This document shows positions 5,019 to 7,966 of a stretch of DNA of 64,000 nucleotides, one piece after another; within the stretch, counting starts at the first letter, position 1, and each line of letters opens with the position of its first letter. The translations under genes and the position numbers were made by a program. Under the pieces are notes generated by a model. The model was given only the letters and a program-made list of their open reading frames with translations, was not told the origin of the DNA and ran no database searches. The stretch lies in contig NZ_FNVA01000005.1 of NCBI RefSeq assembly GCF_900108185.1, forward strand, positions 62,001 to 126,000, given 5' to 3'. This stretch comes from Bryocella elongata. Lineage in GTDB: Bacteria > Acidobacteriota > Terriglobia > Terriglobales > Acidobacteriaceae.

Positions 5019-5633
5019 TTACGCGCGCTTGCAGTCGCAGTTGAGGCACTTGTGCTGGGCGCACGCTCCGCAGGTTCTTGCGAGCTCGCGCTTGAGGGCG
5101 GCGCGGGCGCGGTGGGCGCGTACGGCCGCGTTGCCGGGGGTGAGTTGGTGGCGCGTGGCGTAGGTGCTCAGCGGCTCTTCGGCCAGATCGACCTCGCGCA
5201 GGATCTCGGCGTAGGCGGGGCGCAGCGAGGGCAGCACGTAGGCGATGCAGTGGCAGACGAGGTCGTGGGTCTGGATGCTGGTTGCTGCACCGTGTGCCAG
5301 CTCCTGCGTCCAGCGTTCGAGGGCGGAGCTCTCTGTGCTGCGGCGGCGGAAGTGGTCGATGATGGCGTTGCGGAGGACGGCGAAGAACCAGGCGACGGCG
5401 GACTCGTCATCGCGCAGGGTGGTGGAGCGCTCGAGGGCGCGCATGTAGGCGGCCTGCAGGATGTCTTCGGCGAGGGCGCGGTCGTCGACGCGGCGGGCGA
5501 CGAAGGCGAGGAAGCGCGACCGGCGGGTGAGCAGGTCTTCGAGTTTCGCGTTCGTGGCCATCGCAGAGGGAATGAGGGGCTTGCGGTCCGCGAGAGCTTT
5601 GCCCCGGCGGACCGCAGTCTCTGTTAGCAGCAT
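5019..5633 (-). CDS. ECF sigma factor with Cys-rich tail (CorE-like, ECF44 type)
   Basis: The 204-residue product has an ECF sigma architecture: region 2 (RSRFLAFVARRV and the helix DILQAAYMRALE with AWFFAVLRNAIIDHFRRR) and region 4 (LREVDLAEEPLSTYATRHQLTPGNAAVRAHRARAALK in pieces). The tail after region 4 holds Cys188, 191, 196, 199 and 201 plus His194. A cysteine-rich C-terminus is the hallmark of CorE-type sigma factors of Myxococcus, which use it to sense copper, cadmium or zinc without an anti-sigma partner. The start ATG lies inside the 3' end of the metallothionein-like gene, ten bases overlapping in another frame. Direct metal control of this sigma factor is inferred from the family; the metal is not predictable by eye. 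Confidence 0.85.
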   Translation of the reverse strand: MLLTETAVRRGKALADRKPLIPSAMATNAKLEDLLTRRSRFLAFVARRVDDRALAEDILQAAYMRALERSTTLRDDESAVAWFFAVLRNAIIDHFRRRSTESSALERWTQELAHGAATSIQTHDLVCHCIAYVLPSLRPAYAEILREVDLAEEPLSTYATRHQLTPGNAAVRAHRARAALKRELARTCGACAQHKCLNCDCKRA

Positions 5634-5719
5634 GGCAGATTCGGCACAGTGCCGGGGCAGTTGCAGTCGGGGCAGGTGCAGGTGGGGCCGCAGGCGCAGT
5701 TGTTGCAACGGGTGGTCAT
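5624..5719 (-). CDS. Tiny metallothionein-like peptide, 31 residues with 9 Cys
   Basis: The peptide has nine cysteines in 31 residues, at positions 5, 8, 10, 14, 16, 19, 21, 30 and 31, arranged as repeated CxC and CxxC pairs, as in metallothioneins. A strong ribosome binding site (GAAGGAG, about nine bases before the ATG) supports translation. The coding stretch ends inside the start of the sigma gene, so both are probably coupled. A role in binding soft metals, or in tuning the metal signal seen by the sigma factor tail, is inferred from composition and position. It could alternatively be a leader peptide whose translation controls the sigma gene. I know of no named family for it. Confidence 0.65.
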   Translation of the reverse strand: MTTRCNNCACGPTCTCPDCNCPGTVPNLPCC

Positions 5720-5769
5720 GGCGTGGATCTCCTTCGTGACTCGGCTTCAGGCCGTTCGTCGTGTAGGAA

Positions 5770-5795
5770 GACGCAGGCGGGTGCGGGACATTACA
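5770..5795 (-). promoter_or_regulatory. Candidate ECF-type promoter for peptide/sigma operon
   Basis: On the minus strand TGTAAT (5795-5790) is followed after exactly 16 bases by CGTC (5773-5770), the general layout of ECF promoters. It lies about 50 bases upstream of the metallothionein-like start, so the sigma factor may control its own operon. Both elements are short and the match could be chance. Confidence 0.3.
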
Positions 5796-5852: not shown

Positions 5853-6464
5853 TTACTGTTGGCGGCGCAGCCAGCTTCGGGCGGAGTCTGCGAGTGTCAC
5901 GACGGCTGCGCCCAGCATGATGGAGTCCTTGATGATCAGCCGTCCGCCGCCAGCGAGATAGGGGAAGCCGTGCGTCGAGGAGCCTATGGCGGGAACCCAC
6001 ACCTCCGGCGTTGTCACGAGAAACGATAACGTTGTGAGCGCCATTCCGATAAGAAGGAAGCTGCCGATGGCGGAGAGCTGCGGTGCAAACGGGTAGGACG
6101 CGATGAGGAGGCCGATCAGGATGATCACGACGCCCAGGCCATAGGAGACGGGGTAGGTGCGGTTGGCTTCGTTCCACTGATGATGCGCGGGGATTACTTC
6201 GCCTTCCTTGTTCATGTAGTGGCGATACTCGGGCGCGGGAGAGCGATAGATGAAGCTCATGACAGGGCTGTTGGCGACGAGCGGGACGATGCTATCCGCT
6301 TCATAGTCGGCGAACTTCAAGCCACCGATCCAGAGCAGCACGACGACCAATGCAAGGCGCAGCAGGCCCATACCGAAGCGGTCGAGCCGCGCTGCCTGCT
6401 GGAAGATACGTGTGACGGCGGATTGGTTGGCAACCGTTGCGGTGGTAGCAGATGGGGTAGACAT
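5853..6464 (-). CDS. DUF417 membrane protein, RclC/YkgB-like
   Basis: The 203-residue protein has four hydrophobic segments and the DUF417 features GMGLLRLALVVVLLWIGGLKF near residue 30 and GFPYLAGGGRLIIKD near residue 165. In Escherichia coli the family member RclC belongs to the reactive-chlorine resistance operon controlled by the AraC regulator RclR. Here the gene follows an AhpD-like gene by 29 bases, and an AraC regulator is divergent from that, which repeats the RclR/RclC association in a different arrangement. The start ATG has AAGGA six bases upstream. An inner-membrane role in oxidant defence is inferred from the family and the neighbours. Confidence 0.85.
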   Translation of the reverse strand: MSTPSATTATVANQSAVTRIFQQAARLDRFGMGLLRLALVVVLLWIGGLKFADYEADSIVPLVANSPVMSFIYRSPAPEYRHYMNKEGEVIPAHHQWNEANRTYPVSYGLGVVIILIGLLIASYPFAPQLSAIGSFLLIGMALTTLSFLVTTPEVWVPAIGSSTHGFPYLAGGGRLIIKDSIMLGAAVVTLADSARSWLRRQQ

Positions 6465-6493
6465 GACGACGTTCCTTTCGGTGTAACTTCGAC

Positions 6494-7033
6494 TTACAGC
6501 TGGACCTGGACCACCGGGAAATCGATTACCGGATCGGCCAGGCGATTGGCGTAGTTGGTCATGGTCATCAGCGCAATGTTGGCGATGATCTCGATCATGA
6601 GTCCGTCGTCCACACCGGCTTCGCGAGCTGCTGCCATGTCCGCGTCGGAGACCTGTCCACGCTGCTGCATGGCCTTGAGTGCGAACGTTGCGATGGCGTT
6701 CTCCAGCGGATCGTCGCTGCTGGCGGTCCGGGCCTGACGAATCTGTCCCGGAGTGAGTCCTGCCATCCTGGCGGTGGTGCTGTGCACCGAAAGGCAGTAT
6801 TGGCACTCGTTGCTCTGCGAGATGAGCAGGGCCAGGATTTCGCGCTGGCGGGCGGTCAGACGCCCCTTTTGCAGCGCTGCCGAGAAGGCAAGGTATCCCT
6901 CGAGCGCGACGGGCGACTGGGCCATGGTGGCATAGGCTTTGATCACTTTGCCCGACCTGGCTTTGATCTGCGCCAGCAAGGCGGCGATCGGGGAATCTGG
7001 TTCAGGAGCGGTGACGGGGGAAATGCGAGGCAT
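6494..7033 (-). CDS. Carboxymuconolactone decarboxylase/AhpD-like protein
   Basis: The 179-residue protein has the AhpD-type redox motif Cys77-x2-Cys80 with His84 (ECQYCLSVHS), followed by the all-helical core typical of the carboxymuconolactone decarboxylase family. Proteins with this motif reduce peroxides or recycle peroxiredoxins; those without cysteines act on lactones. The intact pair suggests an alkylhydroperoxidase-type role. It is the first gene of a two-gene unit with the DUF417 gene and is divergent from the AraC regulator 108 bases away. The ATG at 7033 gives full family length. Confidence 0.87.
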   Translation of the reverse strand: MPRISPVTAPEPDSPIAALLAQIKARSGKVIKAYATMAQSPVALEGYLAFSAALQKGRLTARQREILALLISQSNECQYCLSVHSTTARMAGLTPGQIRQARTASSDDPLENAIATFALKAMQQRGQVSDADMAAAREAGVDDGLMIEIIANIALMTMTNYANRLADPVIDFPVVQVQL

Positions 7034-7141
7034 CGTGGATCTCCGTTTCTGTCTGCCCCACAGGGGCCAACAGGAAGATCATGCGCCTCCGTGCGAGACT
7101 CATTGAGCTCGATAGTAGCTTTACGATACCCGTCCGTCTCA

Positions 7142-7966
7142 ATGGATCAGCTCTCGCCCTTTTTCGCCCGCTTCGCCCTCTCGGCCCGGGTCTTCTACTC
7201 CGGGCAGCTCTGCGGGATCTCCAGTGATCATGAGAGCGAACGGGCGGGGCACCTGCACGTTCTGCGAAGCGGCACGCTGCGGATCGTGAGGCCAGGCAAG
7301 CCGATGCAGGTGATCTGTGAGCCGAGCGTGCTGTTCTATCCGCGGCCGATGCGACACCAGTTCCAGGCGAGCGAAGAGGATGGGCCGGAGCTGGTCTGCG
7401 CGCAGATCGAGTTCGGCGCGGGCCTCCTGAATCCCCTCGTATCGTCGCTTCCGGAGCTGCTTCTTGTTCCGCTTGCCTCGATGCGTGAGCTTGCGCCGAC
7501 GGTGGAGTTGCTGTTCGCGGAGGCCTTCGGGGAGCGGTCGGGACGGCAGGCCGCCGTGGACCGGTTGGCCGAGTACTTCCTGGTGCTGCTGCTGCGTTCC
7601 GCGCTGGATCATCAGCAGGTGCAGGCGGGGGTGCTGAGTGGGTTGGCTGACCCTCGGCTCAGCAAGGCCATCACCGCGATGCACGAGCGCCCCGAGCACG
7701 CGTGGACGCTGGTGGAGCTGGCGCGGCTGGCGGGGATGTCGCGTCCGCAGTTTGCGGCGCGTTTCCATGAGGTGGTGGGAGCGACGCCGTTTGATTACCT
7801 GACCGACTGGAGGATCGGCGCAGCGCAGGCCCTGCTGCGCAAGGGCGAGCCGCTGAAGATGGTGGCGCCCGCGGTGGGATATGCGGGTTCGACCGCGTTG
7901 AGCCGGGTTTTTTCGAAGCGGATGGGAGTCGCTCCGATGGAGTGGCTGGCCCGGAATCCGGTGTAA
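7142..7966 (+). CDS. AraC-family regulator with cupin domain (RclR-like)
   Basis: The 274-residue protein has an N-terminal cupin_6-type sensor (MDQLSPFFARFALSARVF onward) and two C-terminal helix-turn-helix units (TLVELARLAGMSRPQFAARF and PLKMVAPAVGYAGSTALSRVF). The layout is that of RclR, the hypochlorite sensor of Escherichia coli. Cysteines at 24, 59 and 86 are available for redox sensing; Cys86 sits in a strand (ELVCAQIEF) where RclR also has a cysteine. It is divergent from the AhpD-like and RclC-like genes, its most likely targets. Redox control is inference. The ATG at 7142 was chosen over longer frames since it gives the usual family start. Confidence 0.88.
   Translation: MDQLSPFFARFALSARVFYSGQLCGISSDHESERAGHLHVLRSGTLRIVRPGKPMQVICEPSVLFYPRPMRHQFQASEEDGPELVCAQIEFGAGLLNPLVSSLPELLLVPLASMRELAPTVELLFAEAFGERSGRQAAVDRLAEYFLVLLLRSALDHQQVQAGVLSGLADPRLSKAITAMHERPEHAWTLVELARLAGMSRPQFAARFHEVVGATPFDYLTDWRIGAAQALLRKGEPLKMVAPAVGYAGSTALSRVFSKRMGVAPMEWLARNPV

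Follow-up and report, generated by a model that had tools for sequence, protein, structure and literature searches.

On the minus strand of the window (the whole 64,000-nucleotide stretch of Bryocella elongata DNA analysed), the elements TGTAA-N17-CGTC and AAGGAG, a cysteine-rich frame of 31 codons and an ECF sigma factor gene follow one another in this order. The first of these resembles an ECF promoter (5771..5795), with TGTAA at 5795-5791, a 17-nucleotide spacer and CGT at 5773-5771, the match extending as CGTC to 5770. The AAGGAG (5729..5734) is a Shine-Dalgarno sequence 9 nt 5' of the ATG of the short frame, in agreement with the strong ribosome binding site claimed in a first-pass annotation of this DNA, and the frame itself (5624..5719) reads MTTRCNNCACGPTCTCPDCNCPGTVPNLPCC, which is the peptide of 31 residues and nine cysteines that had been described; its reading frame, conservation, coding constraint and profile match mark it as a metallothionein-like micro-peptide gene. 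Between the two genes lies a hairpin (5582..5616) with a perfect outer stem of 10 bp, probably an attenuator or partial terminator, and this is followed by the gene for a CorE-type (ECF44) sigma factor of 180 aa (5019..5561), which probably starts at ATG 5561, the in-frame ATG at 5633 being less likely. A stricter form of the promoter, GTGTAAT-N15-S-CGT-Y, has a single match in the 5.67 Mb genome to which the window belongs, at the peptide-sigma operon, while a looser pattern gave 4 sites versus 10 control sites in the same genome; since there was no excess, we claim no regulon beyond the operon. A small hairpin just 5' of the Shine-Dalgarno sequence was also seen in many leaders, in the window (5734-5770) and in relatives, differing in sequence (mean z -1.5, 37 loci). 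Further along the window, also on the minus strand (5853-7033), a DUF417 gene overlaps a CMD/AhpD-type gene and a cupin/AraC regulator (6782-7966) is divergent from the pair; the DUF417 protein is RclC-like, scoring 242.6 bits against a cut-off of 275, and pair and regulator together are perhaps a redox-stress operon.

The sigma factor scored above the cut-offs of the sigma-70 superfamily model TIGR02937 (50.3 bits versus 42.9) and of PF04542 (40.9 versus 24), its sigma4 domain falling below that of PF08281 (15.2 versus 25.7). Identity with SigZ, the best model shown, was rejected, the score of 80 bits being far under the cut-off of 169. Two cysteine features characterize the protein. A CxC motif, C103-H-C105 (5247..5255), lies in the linker between sigma2 and sigma4; it was invariant in 6/6 aligned sigmas and occurred in the linker region of 88 of the 90 relatives, the two misses being rows cut by a stop or given a wrong start. 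The C-terminal tail (5031..5072), which reads CGACAQHKCLNCDC in the gene ending at 5019 and has the five cysteines noted on first reading, follows the pattern C-x2-C-x4-C-x2-C-x-C (C164, C167, C172, C175 and C177), present in 87/90 relatives. Its spacing is that of C181, C184, C189, C192 and C194 of CorE (numbering as in PMC3107203), so that it covers the four invariant CorE cysteines C181, C184, C192 and C194. Among the six neighbours tested by Pfam (DUF417, CMD/AhpD-like, YCII, amidase, AraC-type and amidohydrolase) there was no adjacent anti-sigma gene. AlphaFold predictions, made for the sigma with six sequences, gave two helical parts and a linker and tail of low confidence, with pLDDT under 50 at residues 173-180 of the tail and 84-102 of the linker; they are thus uninformative about the tail.

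To follow the short frame beyond this genome, 300 genomes of the same family were searched for the sigma, which was found in 54 of them at E 1e-20 or better; the 62 match rows correspond to 60 loci plus two pieces of one split gene (G278, L236). In the split case, the sigma is broken into two frames, and peptide and promoter are intact. A cysteine-rich small open reading frame (sORF) lay directly upstream of the sigma in 37 of the 60 family loci, and a listing of 66 loci, made up of these 60 and six further ones, likewise held 37 with a directly upstream frame. When the micro-peptide together with TGTAA-N17-CGT was sought within about 5 kb of the sigma, the number rose to 41/60, the four extra loci having another layout, with a gene in between (L052) or with the peptide divergent (L072, L081 and L083). 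The first-pass annotation had staked its proposal on the short frame and its cysteine positions being conserved in genomes that keep the sigma gene; in the family relatives both the frame and the cysteine pattern are kept beside the sigma, and where the frame is missing the sigma locus usually carries a copper-type ATPase, in most cases preceded by the promoter motif of the peptide loci.

Alignment of 31 peptides, near-copies left out, gave the common pattern MxxKCxxCxCGxxCxCxxCxC, with lengths from 21 to 50 aa and large variation outside the cysteines. We found that synonymous change exceeded replacement change (pS 0.302, pN 0.074) in 13 close pairs of equal length, the groups of near relatives from which they were drawn being chosen by eye. 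In these pairs no cysteine was lost in 94 comparisons, with 22 synonymous changes of cysteine codons, and 41 of 208 non-cysteine positions were changed and 167 kept. In addition, a Shine-Dalgarno-like site stands at a suitable distance in 36 of the 37 loci with a directly upstream peptide. A profile of the peptides matched 24 places in 23 of the 300 family genomes, 22 of them beside a sigma already found, although this profile misses true peptides, for example in G140 and G158; a weak match in G283 sits within a 335-aa frame and was set aside. The shared promoter (37/37), the spacer control given below and the coding constraint rule out chance open reading frames, and the sORFs are, as far as sequence can tell, a translated and selected peptide family. 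With 9 cysteines among 31 residues, CxC and CxxC motifs and no F, W, Y or H, the window peptide has the composition of a metallothionein in the wide sense of the term. It matched no metallothionein family of Pfam or NCBIfam; likewise, no metallothionein model of NCBIfam was matched by any of the 31 peptides, two of which weakly matched the plant family PF02068 (best E 0.0029). The best PDB matches of the profile built from the 31 peptides were the wheat Ec protein 2kak (E 0.0013), which we take to be a zinc metallothionein, and the Neurospora metallothionein 1m0j (E 0.72).

An ECF-type promoter ahead of both genes had been suggested from the window alone, and the relatives bear it out: TGTAA-N17-CGT, with a spacer of exactly 17, is present in all 37 family loci in which the peptide gene immediately precedes the sigma, 52-90 nt ahead of the chosen peptide start. 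In the 29 other loci, the 700 nt preceding the sigma match, read on the strand of that match, contained no TGTAA-N15-18-CGT[CT]. As a control, the spacer was varied over 93 loci (932 kb), which gave 93 sites at spacer 17, whereas each of the other lengths in the range 13-21 gave 4-22, the highest control being spacer 13 with 22 sites, five of them before cysteine-rich sORFs. Such an sORF follows 47 of the 93 spacer-17 sites and 1.9% of random positions. After 32 of the other 46 sites (28 loci) there is a frame with P1B-ATPase motifs, and the motif also precedes a multicopper oxidase once (L180) and a heavy-metal-domain protein once (L036, by eye); some of the remaining spacer-17 sites look like chance occurrences. 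The CPC, YN and MxxSS motifs of these ATPases are presumably the marks of copper pumps.

Farther from the sigma genes the motif is less telling. The strict pattern gave 22 sites in 26 genomes of the genus, versus 13 control sites; sigma operons account for 7 of the 22, which leaves 15, close to the number of controls. Among sites combining promoter and Shine-Dalgarno sequence in the 300 family genomes, 17 stretches, chosen by eye, were examined and comprised one new peptide (L225), the known L236 and 15 stretches without a cysteine-rich sORF. In four plasmid records with CorE-like genes (Nitrospirota and Alphaproteobacteria; Manganitrophus, Roseobacter, Phenylobacterium and Tritonibacter, L241-L244), chosen from 30 found, we located nine sites with spacer 17 and none with 16 or 18, not all of which need be promoters. 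No cysteine-rich sORF was found in these four records, three of which have annotated copper genes in the vicinity. Because only spacer-17 sites occur near these plasmid genes, the motif apparently goes with the sigma type in different phyla, and TGTAA-N17-CGT may define the whole CorE-type regulon.

The hairpin between the two genes bears on the start of the sigma and on the role of the sORF. The 63 nt that hold it in the window fold with -29.5 kcal/mol (z -4.4), and the 70 nt after the peptide stop had a median z of -3.87 over the 37 loci, with z of -2 or lower in 29/37 loci versus 20/300 random windows. An unbroken stem of at least 8 bp follows the peptide in 25/37 loci, compared with 11/300 random windows, and no unbroken stem of 8 bp was present there in the remaining 12. 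The first-pass annotation had let the peptide gene end inside the start of the sigma gene. This overlap requires a start at ATG 5633, just before the strong hairpin, which would then be part of the N-terminal extension of the long frame, and it appears doubtful since, in addition, the sigma proteins of relatives have a Met near residue 25 of the long frame, so that their N-termini fit ATG 5561, and a gap of at least 26 nt separates peptide stop and aligned sigma start in 32 of 37 loci. No clear Shine-Dalgarno sequence was seen by eye at either start, and a similar possible overlap is found in L046 (with GTG), L053, L059 and L063 also being close. The sigma therefore probably starts at ATG 5561, the overlap being an artefact of the choice of start codon. 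Translational coupling through the 10-nt overlap as the likely design was rejected on the position of ATG 5633 before the hairpin and on the gaps in 32/37 loci. The hairpin probably lets more peptide than sigma be made, thereby limiting the sigma.

A cysteine-rich sORF, then a strong hairpin (stems of at least 8 bp in 25 loci), then the sigma is also the arrangement expected if the sORF were a leader of cysteine codons, at which ribosome stalling would control the hairpin and hence sigma expression, the peptide itself being inert. Cysteine-responsive attenuators are known in mycobacteria. We consider such a leader highly unlikely here, because what is kept is the CxC/CxxC spacing and not runs of cysteine codons, because the non-cysteine residues are constrained too (167/208 kept in the close pairs), and because the sORF is not always upstream in cis: in L072, L081 and L083 the peptide lies with its promoter on the strand opposite to the sigma and is followed by its own strong terminator-like hairpin. 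Other copies are found away from the sigma altogether. In L189 the motif and its peptide are 131 kb distant from the sigma, and L225 is a second peptide (53 aa, same motif) in genome G299, which also carries L099; the contig holding L225 breaks off 64 nt after the peptide, and a hairpin falls within these 64 nt. Copies of this kind argue against a leader peptide and also against a role solely as a partner of the sigma.

The latter role, in which the peptide would be a dedicated regulator of the sigma, a metal-dependent anti-sigma that takes metal from the cysteine tail or, loaded with metal, docks on it, and only secondarily a buffer, has in its favour the tight linkage to the sigma (directly upstream in 37/60 family loci), the richness of both proteins in cysteine and the switch-off step described for CorE (PMC3107203). 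It is nevertheless quite unlikely in our judgement, given the same-motif copies away from the sigma (L189, L225) or divergent from it (L072, L081, L083) and given a peptide of 21 to 50 aa, variable outside the cysteines, which is unlike a specific binding partner. The alternation of the peptide with ATPases also speaks against it, suggesting that the slot is one for an effector.

This alternation was apparent when 91 sigma loci were compared, mostly with about 5 kb on each side and some cut by contig ends (the sigmas of L040 and L183 are identical): the peptide was present in 46 and a P1B-ATPase in 30, no locus combined the two, and 15 lacked both, with a multicopper oxidase also present in 4 of the 30 ATPase loci. 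Four of the 15 loci with neither can be explained, in that L069 has its peptide elsewhere in the genome (the L189 copy), L176 has a peptide under a one-base variant of the promoter, and in L088 and L175 a short frame resembling an ATPase comes after the motif. Another of the 15, L041, is a partial sigma match; the family loci L074, L076 and L094 had no motif, peptide or ATPase in the approximately 10 kb seen, and seven loci outside the family had neither peptide nor ATPase in the stretch seen. The sigmas of L074, L076 and L094 fall within or at the base of a peptide clade. On a quick tree of 90 sigmas, in which many forks are weakly supported and 34 of 86 inner branches are left open, the label peptide or ATPase changes at least four times. 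For example, the peptide clade L084, L087, L098 and L099 is nested in an otherwise ATPase clade, and another peptide clade (L173, L174, L176, L181) belongs to other families of Acidobacteriota. Genome G166 has one sigma of each kind (L047 peptide-type, L078 ATPase-type) and G246 has one peptide-type sigma (L084) and two of ATPase type (L080, L097). From this gene content, the micro-peptide seems to replace the usual copper pump at these sigma loci. Since the five-cysteine tail is common to peptide-type and ATPase-type sigmas, the signal is probably the same, namely copper. A further observation concerns the pumps themselves: several ATPases behind the motif start with MCCC or MGCC (L037, L077, L078, L080, L086, L090, L093, L096, L097), most then having a DPVCGMTV...YFCS-like stretch, as if a cysteine cluster had been placed at the pump N-terminus.

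Taken together, the data are best explained by an autoregulated copper-responsive operon consisting of promoter, metallothionein-like peptide, hairpin and CorE-type sigma, which we regard as likely. Upon a rise in cytoplasmic copper, and possibly in Cd or Zn, the CxC motif and the five-cysteine tail would bind the metal and the sigma would become active; its holoenzyme would then fire TGTAA-N17-CGT, transcribing the peptide gene and the sigma's own gene. The 31-residue peptide with its nine cysteines would bind metal as a thiolate cluster, and the hairpin would pass only part of the transcription, or of the mRNA, on to the sigma, leaving the peptide in excess. By lowering free metal, the peptide would both protect the cell and return the sigma to its inactive state. 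The anatomy, the conservation, the coding constraint, the promoter motif and the exchange with copper-type ATPases are read from the DNA itself; we infer the identity of the metal, metal binding, the transcription start, the pairing of sigma and promoter, attenuation and feedback; the metal is assigned from the neighbours of sister sigmas and from the spacing of the tail. The proposal of the first-pass annotation, a metal-sensing sigma that switches on a peptide with a buffering role, is thus well supported by anatomy. Its alternative, competition between peptide and tail for metal, fares differently according to how it is read: it may operate as feedback, and as the sole role it is less likely on account of the peptide copies away from or divergent to the sigma (L189, L225, L072, L081, L083).

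The same module might respond mainly to zinc or cadmium, with the peptide a Zn/Cd metallothionein, an explanation that differs from the copper-responsive operon in the metal alone. The response of M. xanthus CorE2 to Cd and Zn (PMC8999054) and the wheat Ec protein as best PDB profile match are in line with it, but sister sigmas that share this tail and motif lie beside copper-type ATPases and a multicopper oxidase, the tail keeps the cysteine equal to CorE C189, described as the main copper-activating residue (PMC3107203), and the window tail has no adjacent Cys-Cys pair of the kind reported to set the metal of CorE2 (PMC9023288); we therefore regard zinc or cadmium as unlikely. Within the copper-responsive operon, we tentatively suggest, as a possibility with somewhat less than even chances, a homeostat in which the peptide is both main output and, by stripping the sigma tail of its metal, off-switch, the hairpin sets the ratio of peptide to sigma and the module has repeatedly been swapped with copper pumps. 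If so, a single sensor could have either buffering or export as its output, the two being interchangeable.

Few sigma factors are equipped with a metal-sensing tail of their own. The nearest are CorE and CorE2 of Myxococcus xanthus, formerly ECF44 and now in ECF238, which share with the window sigma the CxC linker, the cysteine-rich C-terminal extension and the lack of an adjacent anti-sigma; both come from one species and were, according to PMC8103513, the sole studied members of their group in 2021. CorE further resembles the present system in its five-cysteine spacing and in having copper genes as targets, whereas its C206 has no counterpart in the window sigma. In CorE2, which responds to Cd and Zn, there is an adjacent cysteine pair, the second member being Cys174, which is given as absent from CorE (PMC9023288). 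The targets named for CorE in PMC3107203 are a multicopper oxidase, P1B-ATPases and a heavy-metal-domain protein and do not include a metallothionein, a word absent from the main text of that 2011 paper; the -35 sequence looked for there was AAC, as against the TGTAA-N17-CGT found here, and CorE-like sigmas of four Acidobacteria, Acidobacterium capsulatum among them, are listed in it. A literature search covering titles and the beginnings of abstracts found no pairing of a metallothionein with a CorE-like sigma, and the remark of the first-pass annotation that no CorE system with a coupled peptide had been described stands within that literature. OrbS of Burkholderia cenocepacia (ECF243) is likewise a sigma with its own cysteine-rich C-terminal metal sensor, but it is described as inhibited by Fe(II), has another cysteine pattern and drives siderophore genes (PMC9023288).

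On the side of the peptide, MymT of Mycobacterium is a small cysteine-rich copper binder from a non-annotated frame, induced through the cytoplasmic copper sensor RicR (PMC7558416, PMC10141476); by its published description, it differs in being longer (4.9 kDa) and in being controlled by a repressor and not by a sigma. SmtA and BmtA share the cysteine-rich metal-binding design, as judged for the peptide here by its sequence. We take these bacterial zinc metallothioneins to constitute Pfam PF02069, and SmtA is under the SmtB repressor; no Pfam match to this family was found among the 31 peptides, which are 21-50 aa long. The Neurospora crassa metallothionein 1m0j and wheat Ec 2kak, the best PDB profile matches, have the CxC pattern in common with the peptides but are eukaryotic, the similarity is weak and convergence is possible; the Neurospora protein is similar in length to the window peptide and has seven cysteines.

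The present loci add a set of short metallothionein candidates, since metallothionein-like peptides that escape the Pfam and NCBIfam models accompany CorE-type sigmas in several acidobacterial families. The motif, which also marks copper-type ATPases and recurs in other phyla, would make the CorE regulon predictable from sequence, and the two-gene metal switch is small enough to be rebuilt in a laboratory strain. Set beside the known systems, the locus joins a sensor of known type to a new family of outputs and to a promoter motif that is sharply defined.
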